Source of the DNA: Planctomycetota bacterium
Lineage (GTDB): Bacteria; Planctomycetota; Phycisphaerae; Tepidisphaerales; Tepidisphaeraceae
Assembly: GCA_038746835.1 (NCBI GenBank)
Contig: JBCDKH010000014.1
Location: 1-35,369 of the forward strand
Reading direction: 5' to 3'
DNA: 35,369 nucleotides
A program made the translations under genes and the position numbers. Under the pieces are notes generated by a model. That model ran no database searches. It was not told where the DNA came from and was given only the letters and a program-made list of their open reading frames with translations. This document shows, piece after piece, positions 20,855 through 30,558 of the stretch; the stretch's first letter is position 1; every line of letters starts with the position of its first letter.

Positions 20855-21643
20855 TTAGCGACGTCGGGCGGCGAACGCTGCCGCACCCAACGCGAGCATG
20901 GCAGCCGAGGTCGGCTCGGGAATCACACCCGCGGCGAGGCCGACGCCGGGCGTGCTCTCGTAGGCGTAGCCGGTGACGAAGCCCTCGAGTTCGTCGGGCT
21001 GGCCCGAGAGCGAGGCATTGACCTTGGTTGTGATGACGATGCCGATCCAGCCGTAGTGCTGCTCGCCGTCGATGATGGTGCGGACGCCGATGTACTCGGG
21101 CGTCTTTCCGTCGATGACTTCAAAGTTGCCGCTATCGGTGCCGTCAGCGCCGACCTGATTGCTGCCGGCGATGCCACTGATCGATGACGAAGCATCGGGG
21201 TTGAACGTCGGCCCGGTGAGCCCGATGAACTGCCACGAGCGCGTCGTGCCGTTGTCGGTCGCGTCGATGATCTCGCCGAACTGGAGGTCGAGCGGGTTGT
21301 TGGCTTCGCCGAGCGGCGCGGTGCGGTCGACGAGGATCTCGTCCTCGCGGTTACCAATCGCGTTGTCGGGATTGCCCTGAATCTTGATGTTGAGCGCTCC
21401 CTGTGCTTCCTCGTACGACACTTCGAGCTCCGTCGTGCCGTCCTGGTTGAAGTCGATCGGGATGATGATGTCGTTTCCACCGTTGGCCGGGCCGATGCCC
21501 GGGACGTTGGGGCCGTTGAAGAGGGCTCCGTCGACCGGGCAGAGCTCGGTGTAGACGACGTCGGCGGAAGCAGAAGCCGCGACGGTCAGTGCTGCCGCAG
21601 CGGCGGCGTAGGCGCGAACGCGTGGTTGTGTAGAACGATGCAT
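20855..21643 (-). CDS. PEP-CTERM protein, tandem paralogue A
   Basis: 262 residues from the ATG at 21643 (MHRSTQPRVRAYAAAAAALT); the longer frame to 21733 has no signal-peptide logic. After the signal peptide comes VDGALFNGPNVPGIG, an acidic loop IDFNQDGTTELEV that resembles a Ca2+-binding DxNxDG motif, and the block EYIGVRTIIDGEQHYGWIGI. It ends with PEPTSAAMLALGAAAFAARR. Nearly the same landmarks occur in the same order in the upstream gene at 21790-22539, so the pair arose by tandem duplication. The ribosome site is weak. Exosortase processing is expected from the tail; the role is unknown. Confidence 0.88.
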   Translation of the reverse strand: MHRSTQPRVRAYAAAAAALTVAASASADVVYTELCPVDGALFNGPNVPGIGPANGGNDIIIPIDFNQDGTTELEVSYEEAQGALNIKIQGNPDNAIGNREDEILVDRTAPLGEANNPLDLQFGEIIDATDNGTTRSWQFIGLTGPTFNPDASSSISGIAGSNQVGADGTDSGNFEVIDGKTPEYIGVRTIIDGEQHYGWIGIVITTKVNASLSGQPDELEGFVTGYAYESTPGVGLAAGVIPEPTSAAMLALGAAAFAARRR

Positions 21644-21741
21644 TGGGACGAGGGTCGGGGCGTTTCGATACGCGAAAGCAAACAACCAAACACCTACGTG
21701 GCACGTCGAGACGTGCACGGAAGCGTCGGGCAAAAGGCGTC

Positions 21742-21789: not shown

Positions 21790-22539
21790 CTAGCGGCGGC
21801 GACGCATCGAAGCGAGGCCCGCGGCACCGAGGGCTAGGACGGCTGCCGAGGTCGGCTCCGGAATCGCACCGGCCTTGATGCCTGCGCCGGGAACGTCGTT
21901 GTACGCGTAGCCGCTGACAAAGCCGGTGAGCACGTCGTTGGTGTTGTCGCGCTCAGTGATGACGATGCCGATCCAGCCGTAGTGCTGCTCGCCATCAATA
22001 ATGGTCCGAACGCCGATGTACTCCGGCGCGATCGGGTCGAGCAGGTCGAAGTTGCCACCGCCGTTGCTGTTGGAGATGCCGCTTGGCGAGTTGCCGCTGT
22101 CGGTGAGGCCGATGAACTGGAACGACCGTTCCGGCGACGTCAGCGAAGCGTCAATCGTGTCGCCGAACTGCAGGTTCAACGGGCTGTTTGCGTTGCCCGC
22201 TGCCTGGGTTCGGTCGACCACGATCTCGTCTTCAGCGTTGCCGACCGCATTGGTCGGTGAGCCCTGGATCTTGATATTCAGGTTGTTGGTGACTGGTTCC
22301 TCGTAAACGACTTCCATTTCGGCCGTGCCGTCCTGATCAAAGTCGATCGGGATGATGATGTCGTTGCCGCCGTTGCTGGTGCCTTGGCCAGCGACGTTGG
22401 GCCCGTTGAACAGGGCGCCGTCGACTGGGCCGACTTCGGTGAAGACGATTCCGGCCGATGCCGGCGCGGCGATCGAAAGGGCGGCGGCGGAGGCGGCGTA
22501 GGTGCCGAGGCGTGCGGTATTGAGCTTGTTCTGTTGCAT
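21790..22539 (-). CDS. PEP-CTERM protein, tandem paralogue B
   Basis: 249 residues. Signal peptide (TYAASAAALSIAAPASAG), then VDGALFNGPNVAGQG, the acidic loop IDFDQDGTAEMEV (Ca2+-binding-like), INLQFGD-type strands and EYIGVRTIIDGEQHYGWIGI, which is identical to paralogue A over 20 residues. The tail is PEPTSAAVLALGAAGLAS then an Arg cluster. The middle section between the landmarks (SNSNGGGNFDLLDPIAPE) is the most diverged from A. A good terminator follows. Family function is unknown; surface-anchored protein after exosortase cleavage is the expected state. Confidence 0.9.
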   Translation of the reverse strand: MQQNKLNTARLGTYAASAAALSIAAPASAGIVFTEVGPVDGALFNGPNVAGQGTSNGGNDIIIPIDFDQDGTAEMEVVYEEPVTNNLNIKIQGSPTNAVGNAEDEIVVDRTQAAGNANSPLNLQFGDTIDASLTSPERSFQFIGLTDSGNSPSGISNSNGGGNFDLLDPIAPEYIGVRTIIDGEQHYGWIGIVITERDNTNDVLTGFVSGYAYNDVPGAGIKAGAIPEPTSAAVLALGAAGLASMRRRR

Positions 22540-25640: not shown

Positions 25641-26333
25641 TCACGTGCCACGCGTGTCGCCGTACAGGAACACGTGCAGCCGTGGGCAGAAGCGGTAACC
25701 CGTCGACTTGCACAGCTCTGCCAGCCACCCGGATCGTTGTACGAGCGTTTCGGTGTCTGTCCCTTCCGGCATCAGAAGGACGTCGTCAGGAGCGATGTTT
25801 TCAAGACGATCAACCACGTCACCGAGCTCGTCGACATCGCCGGGCGACGCAACGACGAACTTGACCTGGACGTCGCCGCGTCGTGTTCGAGTGTTCGAGA
25901 TCAGCCCGTTCATCGCCTCGAAATCAAGTCGCTGCCGTTCGTGTGCGTCGGCGAACTGGCTTGCGCTAGGCGTCGAGTTGGCGAGCTTGGGCGAGAGGCT
26001 CAGAAGGTCGATCGCGAGCGGCTTGAAGACCGTGCCGGCCGTTTCGAGCGTGATGTGGCGGCCGTCGGACGTGAGACGGTCGCAGAGTTCCTCTGCGTCC
26101 GGCTGGATGACGGGCTCGCCGCCGGTGAAGACGACGTGCTTTCGGTCGACCTCGCCGACCCATGAGACCAGCTCGTCCACCGACTGCTGGCCGCCTTCGG
26201 GTTTCCAGCTCGCGTAGTGCGTGTCGCACCACGAACACCGCAGGTTGCAGCCGCTGGCGCGGATGAACGCACTGGGCACGCCGGTCAGTTTCCCTTCGCC
26301 CTGGATGCTGTCGAAGCGCTCGGCGATCCGCAC
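25641..26333 (-). CDS. queE: 7-carboxy-7-deazaguanine synthase (radical SAM)
   Basis: 230 residues from GTG 26333 (RIAERFDSIQGEG), the position where QueE proteins normally begin; the frame stays open far upstream but overlaps the divergent gene. It converts 6-carboxytetrahydropterin to 7-carboxy-7-deazaguanine on the path to preQ0, queuosine and 7-deazaguanine DNA modifications. The motif CNLRCSWC (Cys29, Cys33, Cys36) binds the 4Fe-4S cluster; the CxxxCxxC spacing is standard. FTGGEPVIQ is the SAM-binding GGE motif. No queC, queD or queF gene lies nearby, so the pathway is scattered. It is divergent from the TonB-like gene, with 35 nt between starts. Confidence 0.93.
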   Translation of the reverse strand: MRIAERFDSIQGEGKLTGVPSAFIRASGCNLRCSWCDTHYASWKPEGGQQSVDELVSWVGEVDRKHVVFTGGEPVIQPDAEELCDRLTSDGRHITLETAGTVFKPLAIDLLSLSPKLANSTPSASQFADAHERQRLDFEAMNGLISNTRTRRGDVQVKFVVASPGDVDELGDVVDRLENIAPDDVLLMPEGTDTETLVQRSGWLAELCKSTGYRFCPRLHVFLYGDTRGT

Positions 26334-26368
26334 GCAGCAGCGTACGACGGGCCGATTCTCCGATAGAG

Positions 26369-27172
26369 TTGGGTGTGCGGATTGCCCGACGCGGGACACG
26401 CTCAATCGGCGGGGCGATAGTGGCCTCGGTGGTCCTTCACGCGTCGCTGATCGCAGCCGGCCTCTACCACGTGGGGTGGAGCCCAGGCGATGGGCTCGAT
26501 CTCGCGGTTGTTCAGCAGACCCTGCCGGACAACGCGCTCGGCACGCCGGGGCAGGGCGAGGCGTTCCTCGAAAAGCAGGGCGAGCTTCCCGAGCTGGCAT
26601 CACGGCTCGGCCGACAGCAGCCGAGATTGCTCGATTCGCCCGCCTCGCCACCGTCGCAAGCTGCGGCGGCCGAGTCGGTGGCAGAGGCGCTGGAGACGCC
26701 CGCGACACCGGAAGGGCTCCGAGGCCCGCTCTCGTCAGACGCGGCGAGCCTCGCCTTCGCCGACGAGGCCGCCAGTCCGACGGAAGACGAGTCGGCCGAT
26801 GCCGAACCGTCGCAGCCGTCTCCGCCGATGACCGCGGGACCGTCGACTGACCGCGAGTCGCCCGCCGTCTCACCGCGACCGGTGCCGGTCATCGACATCC
26901 GGACCGGTGCGGTCATCAGCGGCGGAAAACTCGACTTCAAGCCGCGCCTGCTCAGAGCCGGCCTGAGCGCGTATGCGGACCGCGTGTCGGGGCGAACGAT
27001 GCGGCTGCAACTGGAAATCGACCGCACGGGTCGGCCGAACATCGTGATGATCCTGCGGGCATCGGGAAGTCGCTCAGTGGATGCGCTCGTGGAACGGTCG
27101 CTCTTCGAGTGGTGGTTCAACCCGGATCAGCAGGCCTCGGGCGAGCCATTCGTGATCGACCTGCGGCTGTAA
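26369..27172 (+). CDS. TonB-like energy-transducer protein
   Basis: 267 residues from TTG 26369 (GTG 26375 possible). One N-terminal membrane helix (about 13-33, GGAIVASVVLHASLIAAGLY) with the TonB-typical polar H. A long Pro/Ala/Glu-rich periplasmic linker spans about 60-180. A C-terminal domain of ~75 residues ends the protein: GRTMRLQLEIDRTGRPNIVM, ILRASGSRSVDALVERSLFE and WWFNP, following the TonB C-terminal pattern. It would pass energy from an ExbB/ExbD complex to an outer-membrane transporter, but neither ExbBD nor a TonB-dependent receptor is in the window. The end overlaps the convergent ABC ATPase gene by 46 nt. Confidence 0.78.
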   Translation: MGVRIARRGTRSIGGAIVASVVLHASLIAAGLYHVGWSPGDGLDLAVVQQTLPDNALGTPGQGEAFLEKQGELPELASRLGRQQPRLLDSPASPPSQAAAAESVAEALETPATPEGLRGPLSSDAASLAFADEAASPTEDESADAEPSQPSPPMTAGPSTDRESPAVSPRPVPVIDIRTGAVISGGKLDFKPRLLRAGLSAYADRVSGRTMRLQLEIDRTGRPNIVMILRASGSRSVDALVERSLFEWWFNPDQQASGEPFVIDLRL

Positions 27173-28179
27173 ACGTCGCTGCTGAGTCCGCGACCGGTGA
27201 GCGTCATGAAGACGTCGTCGAGCGTCGCGGCAGAGACGCTACACTCGCGCATCGGCGGAAGGTCGTCGCTGGCCATCAGGCTCGACAGCACGGTCTGGCC
27301 ATCCGGCACACGCAGCGTCAGAGCACCGTCGCCATTGGTCACGTTGCCGTGCGGACGGAGGCATTCGGCAAGGTCGTCGAGCATTGCCGGATCGCGCGGG
27401 GCGAGCCGAACGACGTCGCCGGTCGCACGCTGTCGAAGGGCATCGGGCGTGTCGTCCGCGACGATCCGGCCAGCGTCGATCAGCACAATCCGGTCCGCGT
27501 CAGCCGCGTCGGCGGCGAGATCGTCGAGCAGGTGCGTGCTGACGACAACGGTCATCGGTCGCCCGGACGACTCGCGCAAATGACGAACGAGTTTCCAGAC
27601 GTCACGCCTGGCTCCGGGATCGAGGCCGACGGTCGGTTCGTCCATCAATAGAACATCGGGTTCAGCCAGGAGGCTGCGTGCGATTTCCAGTCGACGCCGC
27701 ATGCCGCCGCTGAGCGTTTTGACGACGTCGGCTCCGCGATCGGCAAGGGCGACACGCTCCAACCAAGCGTCCGCGGCAGCGTTTGCATCGCGTCGGTCGA
27801 TACCGGCCAGACGTGCGTGGTACGCGAGGTTCTCCCGGGCGGTCAGTTCTTTGTCGAGGGCCGGGTTCTGGAAGACGACGCCGAGCTTTGACCGCACGGC
27901 ATCGCGATCAGTGTGCACGTCGAACCCGAGCACCGCGGCCGTGCCCGACGTCGGCGGCAAGAGCGTGGCGAGAACGCGAAAGAGCGTCGTCTTCCCGCCG
28001 CCATTGGGTCCGACGAGCGCGAGGGTTTGGCCGACGTCGCACGCGAACGACACGTCGTCGACCGCAGGCGTCTCGCGGCCGGCGTAGCGGCAGGTCAGGT
28101 GTCGGACGTCGACGGCGGTGGCGTTCAACGCGTGGAGCCTACGCGGCGCTACTTCGCGGCCTTCGCCACGAGTCGCCAC
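27127..28179 (-). CDS. ABC transporter ATPase, DrrA-like
   Basis: Up to 350 residues. Walker A GPNGGGKTT (57-65), signature LSGGM (156-160), Walker B VLLMDEP (176-182) and the H-loop STHLLDD are all intact. A C-terminal extension of ~100 residues (LMASDDLPPMRECSVSAATL, DDVFMTLTGRGL) matches the DrrA/NatA-type ATPases that serve ABC-2 exporters. The start is uncertain: GTG 28179 overlaps the upstream gene by 31 nt, while TTG 28128 would leave a 20-nt gap. No permease follows on this strand; the gene ends by overlapping the TonB-like gene. It may serve a permease encoded elsewhere. Confidence 0.9.
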   Translation of the reverse strand: MATRGEGREVAPRRLHALNATAVDVRHLTCRYAGRETPAVDDVSFACDVGQTLALVGPNGGGKTTLFRVLATLLPPTSGTAAVLGFDVHTDRDAVRSKLGVVFQNPALDKELTARENLAYHARLAGIDRRDANAAADAWLERVALADRGADVVKTLSGGMRRRLEIARSLLAEPDVLLMDEPTVGLDPGARRDVWKLVRHLRESSGRPMTVVVSTHLLDDLAADAADADRIVLIDAGRIVADDTPDALRQRATGDVVRLAPRDPAMLDDLAECLRPHGNVTNGDGALTLRVPDGQTVLSSLMASDDLPPMRECSVSAATLDDVFMTLTGRGLSSDVYSRRSITNGSPEAC

Positions 28180-29003
28180 AGCGCGTGTGGCGACATCGAC
28201 GGCTCGCGTCGCTGGACACGCTCTGCGTTGAACGCGTCGCGCAACGTCTCGAAGTCCTCGCTGTACGGCAACCGATCGCGCCGGCCGATCTTGCCGTCGA
28301 AGAGCTTGTCGATGAGCGAGCGTATCAGCTCGCTCGCCCGATCATCCACGGGCGAAGCGTCGCGTGCGGCACCGAGGCGTGGAAGCTGCCCGCGCTTGCG
28401 GAGCGACAGCAGGTGACGCCACGTCTCGCGACGGTCCGGCTGTGGCCCGGCAAACTCGGCGGCGTAGGCGGTGTGGATCGTCTCGAACTGAGGCGTGTAC
28501 GGCAGGTCGTCTGCTGTCCGGCCAGCCTTTTTGTAGAGCTTGGCGAGTAACTCACGCCTGGGCGATAGCGACGCTGCCACGCCGGGAAAGAGTGCGTCCG
28601 GCGTCGCGGCGGTCTCGACCTGTCGGTCGTCGTCGGTCTCGAGGCTGCGGTCGATGAGCAGCAGCACCGTGCCGAACGGATCGCGGCAGGTCGCCTTGTA
28701 GCCGCGAGCCACTCGCGATGGCAGACTCATGAACGTCAGCCGAAGCTCGTTGCGTCTGTTGTGCAACGCCCGCACGTCGTCGACGAGCAGGAAGACGCCT
28801 TCGCCCGGAAGGTCGTCGTCATCGTGGAGCAGAATCTCCCGGCCGTCCGGCAGGCGAAACGTGGCGAAAGTGCCGCCTTCGCGTCGAAGCTCCAGACCCA
28901 GCGTGTCGCGGTAGTAGCGGACGGCCGCGGGGAAGTTGGCGACGCGGAGCACCAGCCGATCGATGCCGGCGAGCAGCGGAGTTGTCCCGTCGACCTCGGC
29001 CAC
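28149..29003 (-). CDS. Glyoxalase-fold (VOC) protein fused to a duplicated C-terminal domain
   Basis: 284 residues from GTG 29003, 16 nt after the preceding stop; the longer frame to 29099 overlaps that gene. Residues 13-120 form a VOC domain (GIDRLVLRVANFPAAVRYYR, DTLGLELRRE, DPFGTVLLLIDR). Residues 151-208 and 226-284 are two copies of a ~58-residue helical unit: LLAKLYKKAGRTADDLPYT...FETIHTAY...WRHLLSLRKRG against LIDKLFDGKIGRRDRLPYS...FETLRDAF...WRLVAKAAK. I do not recognise the repeated unit. VOC proteins bind metals and small substrates; catalytic identity cannot be told. Confidence 0.82.
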   Translation of the reverse strand: MAEVDGTTPLLAGIDRLVLRVANFPAAVRYYRDTLGLELRREGGTFATFRLPDGREILLHDDDDLPGEGVFLLVDDVRALHNRRNELRLTFMSLPSRVARGYKATCRDPFGTVLLLIDRSLETDDDRQVETAATPDALFPGVAASLSPRRELLAKLYKKAGRTADDLPYTPQFETIHTAYAAEFAGPQPDRRETWRHLLSLRKRGQLPRLGAARDASPVDDRASELIRSLIDKLFDGKIGRRDRLPYSEDFETLRDAFNAERVQRREPSMSPHALWRLVAKAAK

Positions 29004-29019: not shown

Positions 29020-30558
29020 TCACGTGGCCGGCAACGGTTGAGGCGTGTCGTCGACGTCGGGCTCCAACTCGTGCTCCTGCCGTTTTCCAAACCCGCCACG
29101 CAGAACGAAGATGCCGCCGGTGAGGTTCCAGAGGATCTGGACGACGCGAATGCAGAGCGCCAACGCGAACGCCTGGGCGACCGTCGCGCCCTGCGGCTTG
29201 GTCAAAATGACGGCGAAGAACTCCATCACGCCCGCGCCCTGCGGACTCACCGGCATGCTGGCTGACAGCACGATCACCGGAACGCAAACGAAGTAGTACG
29301 GCCAGGGAATCGGCAGCCCCAGCGCCACACCCGCAAGCATCGCGGAGATGATCACCGCACCGTGGACCGGCACCGTTAGCAGTGACGACTCGACCACGCG
29401 CATCGGCTGACTGCGATACGCCTCGGCCACGGTGTACAGCGCATCGAGGCCATCGCGGGCCTTGAGCTTGATCCGGTCGGACAGCCTGTCCGACACCTCA
29501 TCCGGCAGGTCTTCGTACCGCGGGGCCGCCTTGTCCAGGACACGTCCCAGGCCTGTCCGCGTCCGGATCACTTGCCTGGTCGGAGCGCTGCTCAAAATGA
29601 TGCCGACCACGACCGTTGCGATCATCATCACCACGGCAACGGTGGCGACACGCACACACGCGATCGCGACCGGAGACGACTTGTCGTCGGTCATCGCATA
29701 CTGGATCGTGGCCGCCGTGCCGCCGATGGCGACGAGGACCAGAAGCCCGATCAGCCGATCGACGAACACACTCATCCACGCCGCCGCCTTGTAGCCGGGG
29801 CGGGCATATCGGCCTGCGTAGAAGGCTTTGACGAAGTCGCCGCCCGTGCTGCCGAGCATGAACGAGTTGTAGAACAACCCGACCATGTTGAGCACGAACG
29901 CCTTGCGCAGCGGCATCTCGATACCGAGCGGCGACATCAAGCGCCACCACCTCAAGCCCGTAAAAATCAGCGTCGCCGGGAAGACTGCGATTGCCGCGAC
30001 GAGCAGCGACGGGTCGGCCCCGCGCACCATGTTTGCAAGCCCCGTCCGCACCAGCGGCTGAGGCGGTTGCGGTGTGTACCGAAAGCCCTGCGACGCGTCG
30101 TGTTCGACGACGCGGTAGCCGTCGCCCGATTCGGGCGTGAAGTAATAGATGGTTGTCGCGTACTCGTCGCCGCTGGCGTCTTTTGTCAGCCGCATCGCGG
30201 CGAGTTCGAAGCTGCCGCTGACGAGGTCCACGCCTTTGGCGTCGGGTCCGTTGAGGAGCCGATCGACCGAGACGCGCTCAGGTTCGCCGGTCTCGTACGA
30301 AGCGACGACCACCTCGTCGTCGACCGCAGGATCGAAGGGCTCTTCGACGGCGAGGTCGTAGACCGCGATCTCGTCGCCCTCGCCCTGGAGGACGTAGACG
30401 CGATCGCGGATCGTCAGCTGACTCAAGACCCACGCGATGCCGACGATGGCGATGGTCCATCGGGCGATGAAGGCCAGCCAACTTCGCTTGCCGCCCGAAT
30501 CGACCGGTGGCACATCAAGCGTGTCGGGCGTCGGAGGCTTCGGCGGCAAATCTCCCAT
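29020..30558 (-). CDS. LPG-synthase-TM-type multi-spanning membrane protein
   Basis: 512 residues. One N-terminal membrane helix (about 29-46) is followed by an extracytoplasmic insert of ~130 residues, then several helices (FPATLIFTGLRWWRLMSPLG, KAFVLNMVGLFYNSFMLGST, GGDFVKAFYAGRYARPGYKA, SVFVDRLIGLLVLVAIGGTA). The pattern around RWWRL, FYNSFMLGSTGGD, VFVDRLIGL and PQGAGVMEFF matches the lysylphosphatidylglycerol synthase TM family (UPF0104/PF03706), many of which lack the synthase domain and may flip lipids or form part of envelope pathways. The soluble insert near the N-terminus is unusual for the family. It stands in a minus-strand run with ABC and secreted-protein genes. The start ATG has no clear ribosome site. 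Confidence 0.88.
   Translation of the reverse strand: MGDLPPKPPTPDTLDVPPVDSGGKRSWLAFIARWTIAIVGIAWVLSQLTIRDRVYVLQGEGDEIAVYDLAVEEPFDPAVDDEVVVASYETGEPERVSVDRLLNGPDAKGVDLVSGSFELAAMRLTKDASGDEYATTIYYFTPESGDGYRVVEHDASQGFRYTPQPPQPLVRTGLANMVRGADPSLLVAAIAVFPATLIFTGLRWWRLMSPLGIEMPLRKAFVLNMVGLFYNSFMLGSTGGDFVKAFYAGRYARPGYKAAAWMSVFVDRLIGLLVLVAIGGTAATIQYAMTDDKSSPVAIACVRVATVAVVMMIATVVVGIILSSAPTRQVIRTRTGLGRVLDKAAPRYEDLPDEVSDRLSDRIKLKARDGLDALYTVAEAYRSQPMRVVESSLLTVPVHGAVIISAMLAGVALGLPIPWPYYFVCVPVIVLSASMPVSPQGAGVMEFFAVILTKPQGATVAQAFALALCIRVVQILWNLTGGIFVLRGGFGKRQEHELEPDVDDTPQPLPAT

Follow-up and report, generated by a model that had tools for sequence, protein, structure and literature searches.

The C terminus of a VOC (glyoxalase-fold) protein from a Tepidisphaeraceae planctomycete harbors two tandem copies of a small helical unit that, judged by sequence, is an undescribed domain, absent from every family library searched. 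The gene lies in a stretch of 35,369 nucleotides (GenBank assembly GCA_038746835.1, contig JBCDKH010000014.1, positions 1 to 35,369), which is called the window throughout. With moderate confidence, and leaning on a structural model, we propose that the unit is an HTH-like three-helix nucleic-acid-binding module that is reused on different proteins, which would make the window protein a regulator that combines a VOC ligand domain with DNA binding. Beyond the original prediction, which described the duplicated unit behind the VOC domain, the gene neighborhoods suggest that the unit is often linked to restriction–modification, toxin, and other conflict genes. The window gene, its parts, and its neighbors are listed in Table 1; the start of the gene may lie upstream of the GTG within a 316-aa frame, and the frame of the downstream ATPase as listed overlaps the 3′ end of the gene.

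Table 1. Coordinates of the VOC-doublet gene, its parts, and its neighbors in the window.
Feature	Position	Strand	Remarks
VOC domain + doublet gene, whole	28149..29003	(-)	284 codons + stop, GTG start
VOC (glyoxalase-fold) domain, residues 13-113	28665..28967	(-)	Pfam PF00903
Unit copy 1, three helices (predicted), RTADDLPYTxxFE ... WRxLLxLRKxGxLP	28371..28568	(-)	
Unit copy 2, three helices (predicted), RRDRLPYSxxFE ... WRLVAKxAK at extreme C terminus	28152..28346	(-)	
LPG_synthase_TM membrane protein, upstream neighbor	29020..30558	(-)	Pfam PF03706
ABC-transporter ATPase, downstream neighbor	27127..28179	(-)	Pfam PF00005; start uncertain

The duplication itself is real. The two copies span about residues 146–211 and 220–284, which agrees with the predicted C-terminal repeat; each unit has about 60 residues, and the originally given length of 58 is about right. 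The local alignment score between the copies (taken as residues 146–211 and 218–284) is 65; 5000 shuffles averaged 23.0 (sd 4.3), and not one of them reached the observed score. Profiles of the two copies, each built from 17 family members including the window protein, match each other with 95.8% probability (E 7e-9). These two results led to the rejection of a repeat that is due to chance or compositional bias, whose probability is negligible also in view of the invariant residues that are present across 17 doublets and of the grouping of second copies in the tree described below. The motif LPY(T/S)xxFET occurs exactly as predicted in both copies, and the predicted WR-L-x-K end is found as WRHLLSLRK in copy 1 and as WRLVAKAAK in copy 2. 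The A-x-x-AE element can be read in each of the window copies, as AYAAE and as AFNAE, but orthologs do not conserve it, and it therefore lies outside the signature of the unit. This signature is typically D-x-L-P-Y-[TS]-x(2)-F-[DE], followed later by W-R-x-[LV]-x(4)-K; in exceptions, W-R is replaced, for instance by F-H or F-R.

The expectation that the unit has no family name held up, as no match to a described family turned up. Pfam-A searches with the whole protein, both copies, 28 diverse units, and 10 single-unit proteins (the last two sets share one locus) returned no credible match to the unit, and neither did PDB sequences. The doublet matched nothing in NCBIfam or PADLOC and nothing credible in PHROGs, NCBIfam having also been searched with the whole protein, and a literature search on the unit motif found no related paper. 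Hits to unrelated families in Pfam, PHROGs, and PDB sequences are weak and scattered, the best at 0.0022 for one of ten members.

Structure prediction of the doublet yields a small all-helical unit with three helices per copy, in line with the helical domain that had been suspected. The AlphaFold model (doublet and 17 other rows, pLDDT 91.6, pTM 0.82) places helices at positions 5–17, 28–39, and 48–60 in copy 1 and 78–92, 106–121, and 129–139 in copy 2, an order that recurs in a second instance. The predicted doublet thus has the three-helix core of the HTH/Myb-like DNA-binding fold. A Foldseek search of the doublet model against the PDB and a BFVD fold search gave nothing at E 0.001. In the VIA comparison, where significance starts at Z 8, or at 13 for helical proteins, every row for the unit stays below 8. 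The best neighbor is the Zeste DNA-binding domain (5cqq, Z 6.8, 62 residues, 2.7 Å), followed by MecI (6.4), BlaI (6.0), Nur (5.8), Cdc6/Orc1 (5.7), and PH0061 (5.5). All six are HTH or winged-helix DNA-binding proteins, as which we take Orc1 and PH0061 to be; the lower rows are mixed and include ubiquitin E1 enzymes, MukF, transposition proteins, and others. The same neighbors could mean that the unit is a very diverged branch of a named HTH or Myb/SANT-like family, and one of the 28 units does match HTH_Tnp_1 in Pfam at E 0.044. This reading concerns classification and is compatible with the proposed HTH-like module. It appears rather unlikely, because no family is matched by more than one member and no credible Pfam HTH or Myb match was found among the 28 units and 10 proteins with their one common locus.

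The VOC domain is recognized clearly. It scores 31.3 bits against its Pfam family (cut-off 20.6) and aligns in VIA with 2rk9 (Z 12.3, 105 residues, 2.7 Å) and with 1kmz, the mitomycin-binding protein Mrd (Z 11.5), which together place it in the glyoxalase fold of the VOC superfamily. At the positions that we take to be the metal ligands, set by eye on alignment A2, the first column holds Arg in 13 of 14 sequences and Thr in one, with no His. The second column has no His and Glu in 5 of 14, and the third has no Glu in 14 and a single His. At least two of the three positions are lost, so the domain does not qualify as a VOC metalloenzyme and, as far as these residues tell, is probably a binding domain. 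The window protein could be a metal-independent VOC enzyme or a drug-binding protein in which the doublet only multimerizes or places it, an explanation that draws on the clear VOC fold and on the ligand-binding Mrd among the best matches. We regard it as improbable, since mean pairwise identity in 14 sequences is lower for the VOC part (0.49) than for the units (0.62 and 0.57) and since many genomes carry doublets without a VOC domain. Full-length orthologs occur in 15 further genomes of the family (16 of 26 with the window), and a 17th family genome (G011, locus L020) also argues against that explanation, as it retains the doublet next to a VOC part that Pfam no longer recognizes.

The surroundings of the window gene are not those of a toxin–antitoxin pair. 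Its direct neighbors are the LPG_synthase_TM gene and the ABC ATPase gene rather than a toxin-type gene, and no conflict gene was recognized among the Pfam-scanned neighbors. LPG_synthase_TM lies at most 5 kb upstream of the VOC-doublet gene in 12 of 16 orthologous loci by tblastn (at 2.4 kb in one); the ABC ATPase is not a steady neighbor, with matches of only ~30% in 2 of 16 loci. Elsewhere in the window, the minus strand encodes a radical SAM protein (25641–26873, PF04055, QueE-like by eye), read from a long, GC-rich frame whose N-terminal extension is doubtful, and two adjacent proteins with PEP-CTERM sorting motifs (20855–21733 and 21790–22539), the second of which scores just below the Pfam cut-off.

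The doublet is spread well beyond its VOC context. A search with the A1 doublet alignment matches 69 of 397 Phycisphaerae genomes (51 of 283 among the good ones) and 14 of 392 genomes in a sample of the phylum. In the window's own genome, no second match to the doublet has E <0.02. A scan of genome contigs with the whole window protein found no relative, and a scan with A1 found 13 loci whose named records are Phycisphaerae/Phycisphaerales MAGs, with one each from Tepidisphaeraceae, Humisphaera, and Planctomycetaceae. Units also occur in six IMG/VR viral contigs (L042/L043, L062, L063/L064, L203), which are the only relatives found outside Planctomycetota, the phylum whose genomes were profile-searched with the unit. 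In phages and plasmids, tblastn found no match to single-unit or doublet proteins; one AAA_14-doublet protein (L182) hit six plasmid records, with alignments only from the ATPase part onward, and L195, a protein ending in a single unit, hit no plasmid. In the window's family, a second doublet paralog (L026, L027, L090, L093, L095, L096, L100) carries a tail that is first Lys/Arg-rich and then Asp/Glu-rich.

The different classes of units belong together. Profile comparisons were run among VOC copy 1, VOC copy 2, and single units ending in RK, and between these and the FRG-linked, AAA_14, DUF3644, tail-bearing, PIN-like, and viral units. Of 33 pairs, 32 match at 94.0–99.6% probability and one at 72%, for pieces that were excised with the unit's own HMM and therefore have a common register. 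In a tree of 110 units, 44 second copies from VOC, ArgH, stand-alone, AAA_14, DUF3644, and tailed doublets fall on one side of a branch with 98/93 support, and first copies and single units are mixed. The tree is unrooted, is built on 71 columns with a bootstrap that has not settled, and leaves out the doublets L046–L051, L067, and L090–L100. The common group of second copies suggests that one old duplication probably underlies the doublets, and on this phylogenetic footing one old doublet was probably reused on several different proteins.

Single-unit genes encode ~70 aa and have a conflict-type gene next to them in 13 of 16 planctomycete loci, which were picked by unit score and unblinded, leaving out among others G050, G279, G366, G424, G494, G543, G733, and second matches in G475, G699, and G726. 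The adjacent gene encodes Fic (L118, L188), FRG (L190, L191, L197, L022, L025), a HATPase_c_3 GHKL ATPase by Pfam (L187, L200, L201), a GHKL ATPase recognized by BLAST only and empty in its own Pfam scan (L185), Helicase_C and N6_Mtase (L192), or a Cas3-like helicase (L202). No conflict gene was recognized in L186 (read by eye only), L189 (one neighbor scanned), and L193, which has a DNA_alkylation gene. As in type II antitoxins, a small gene thus lies directly beside a toxin-type gene, namely Fic in 2 and FRG in 5 of the 16 loci and PIN in a viral contig (L203), where the unit is placed directly between a PIN gene and a DNA methylase. The five FRG-linked genomes have exactly one FRG gene each, the one linked to the unit; of the two genomes with a Fic link, one has a single Fic gene and the other has two. 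Across the class, no unit lies within ~1.5 kb of any of the 30 best-scoring FRG loci, and 8 of 118 FRG matches have an adjacent unit by coordinates (G011, G025, G042, G555, G567, G494, G543, G733); the link is therefore confined to a subset of FRG genes. According to PMC9503650, Frg belongs to the ART superfamily and is a potential antiviral effector. Two further viral loci were noted. On a 459-kb contig, a unit gene (L063:4920-5147, plus strand) comes two genes after L063:3961-4623 (plus strand), whose protein is related to PDB 2qip (VPA0982, E 1e-9) and by eye resembles a NYN/PIN-type nuclease. In L042, the unit follows a 621-aa phage ORF that looks like a large terminase by eye and for which a PDB search gave nothing.

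Units are also fused to other proteins, including the single-copy fusions that the original prediction had proposed to look for. A single unit ends an N6_N4 DNA methylase (L196, a weak unit match at E 7e-5) and two ~357-aa proteins without a Pfam match, which are PIN-like by eye and for which Pfam and PDB searches gave nothing. Both sit in type I restriction–modification loci: one (L194) is flanked by a Methylase_S gene and by a gene that encodes DUF4145 and HSDR_N, and the other (L195) is flanked by Methylase_S and RhuM and, on its opposite side, by SLFN_AlbA_2 and HSDR_N genes. Doublets precede AAA_14 ATPases in L180 and L183 (Pfam) and in the homologous L181, L182, and L184; L183 alone adds DUF4143, and a DNA methylase gene precedes its AAA_14-doublet gene. 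In three proteins (L023 and L024 by Pfam, and L067), the doublet stands before DUF3644, a family that PMC3710099 classes as HEPN; the same paper describes an overlapping group, EC042_2821, that carries a wHTH. In both L023 and L024, the DUF3644 part matches PADLOC PDC-S19. One search found the doublet at 3 of 7 DUF3644 loci and none at the other 4. Among 27 plasmid DUF3644 records, 4 were read by eye and no doublet was seen; one of the 4 has an HTH-looking N terminus.

Other doublets are attached to metabolism. ArgH and the doublet are read in one frame in L021 (Pfam), L047 and L050 (frames and tblastn of the regions), and L167 and L173 (BLAST). A ThiL-like gene, so named by eye, lies near the ArgH-doublet in 3 of 3 loci of family f15 and within about 0.9 kb of the stand-alone doublet of family f18 in 6 of 6 loci examined (L106–L109, L198, L199). 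The f18 setting is recurrent, has no obvious link to DNA, and includes an upstream gene that is glycogen-phosphorylase-like by eye in 4 of the 6 loci. A weak AXE1 match was found upstream of one further doublet (L172). The long frames upstream of ten others (L165, L166, L168–L171, L174, L175, L177, L178) are probably not fusions; Pfam gave nothing for those of L165, L174, L177, and L178.

The net charge of the units varies. The window doublet has +8, that of the VOC ortholog L005 only +1, and eight RK-ending single-unit proteins that begin at Met range from +2 to +9. Averages are +1.2 for 44 first copies, +2.3 for 44 second copies, and +3.2 for 22 singles, with a range from −7 to +10, and 4 of 5 FRG-linked units are acidic (−1 to −4 as called).

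Nucleic-acid binding, the most probable function, is favored by the HTH-type VIA neighbors, the fusions to an N6_N4 methylase, DUF3644, and AAA_14, the conflict-gene neighbors, and the basic charges of the RK-ending single units and the window doublet. Against it stand the non-significant fold match, the modest mean charge, the acidic FRG-linked units, and the 3 of 16 single-unit loci that, like the window locus, have no recognized conflict gene. The ArgH-doublet and the doublet near ThiL are metabolic settings with no obvious need for DNA binding. Alternatively, the unit may be a protein-binding adaptor or antitoxin-like module, in which the small gene restrains Fic, FRG, PIN, or the GHKL ATPase, a fusion regulates or docks its host protein, and the doublet of the VOC protein docks to a partner in the membrane or in metabolism, for example LPG_synthase_TM. 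The small genes directly beside toxin-type genes, the mostly acidic FRG-linked versions, the ArgH fusions with the proximity to ThiL, and the LPG_synthase_TM linkage are consistent with such an adaptor. We nevertheless consider it rather unlikely, as one type of unit stands beside or on many unrelated effectors, for which a common ligand such as nucleic acid is a better fit than a partner specific to one toxin; in addition, the fold leans toward HTH, and a unit is fused to a DNA methylase.

In the preferred explanation, the three helices would form an HTH-like fold that binds nucleic acid. The stand-alone ~70-aa unit would partner conflict effectors, the fused unit would serve as a module on such proteins, and an old tandem duplicate would have become attached to a variety of proteins. 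In the window protein, the VOC fold may bind a small ligand or dimerize and the doublet may bind DNA, yielding a one-protein regulator that possibly acts on the operon it would share with the LPG_synthase_TM gene. The analysis demonstrates the repeat, its family, the predicted fold, the lost ligand residues, the fusions, and the gene neighborhoods; nucleic-acid binding, ligand sensing, and the target are inferred.

A wider and more tentative idea, possible though doubtful, is that the HTH-like family provides many antiviral and toxin modules (Fic, FRG, GHKL, HEPN, restriction–modification, AAA_14) in Phycisphaerae and some viruses with a common part that senses nucleic acid or acts as a repressor, the ancient doublet also acting as a regulator in housekeeping genes (ArgH, the ThiL neighborhood, VOC in the window's family). 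Either direction, from defense to housekeeping or the reverse, is allowed because the tree is unrooted. If true, one profile would flag candidate defense or toxin modules in planctomycetes, ~70-aa candidate partners would be at hand beside Fic and FRG genes, and the orphan doublet protein that recurs in Phycisphaerae would gain a first handle. One tandem domain is also common to antiviral-type modules and to the arginine biosynthesis enzyme ArgH.

The unit can be compared with four known systems. HTH and Myb-like domains (Zeste, MecI/BlaI, Fur-type) are its closest structural neighbors, with three helices and a similar size, but the unit has no credible sequence-family match, stays below Z 8, occurs in tandem pairs, and carries the LPYT motif ahead of helix 2. 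Like the small DNA-binding antitoxins of toxin–antitoxin pairs, the single-unit gene is ~70 aa long and directly beside Fic or PIN, whereas doublets also occur in housekeeping proteins and no family in the searched libraries matched the unit. In HEPN DUF3644/PDC-S19 candidates, for which PMC3710099 describes accessory N-terminal domains, the doublet is such a domain in three proteins (L023, L024, L067); it differs in lying outside the part matched by PADLOC and Pfam and in occurring on and beside unrelated effectors. With the VOC/glyoxalase-bleomycin resistance superfamily (PF00903), the window protein shares the fold and the Pfam match, but window-type proteins lack the first and third metal ligands in all 14 aligned sequences and carry the doublet.
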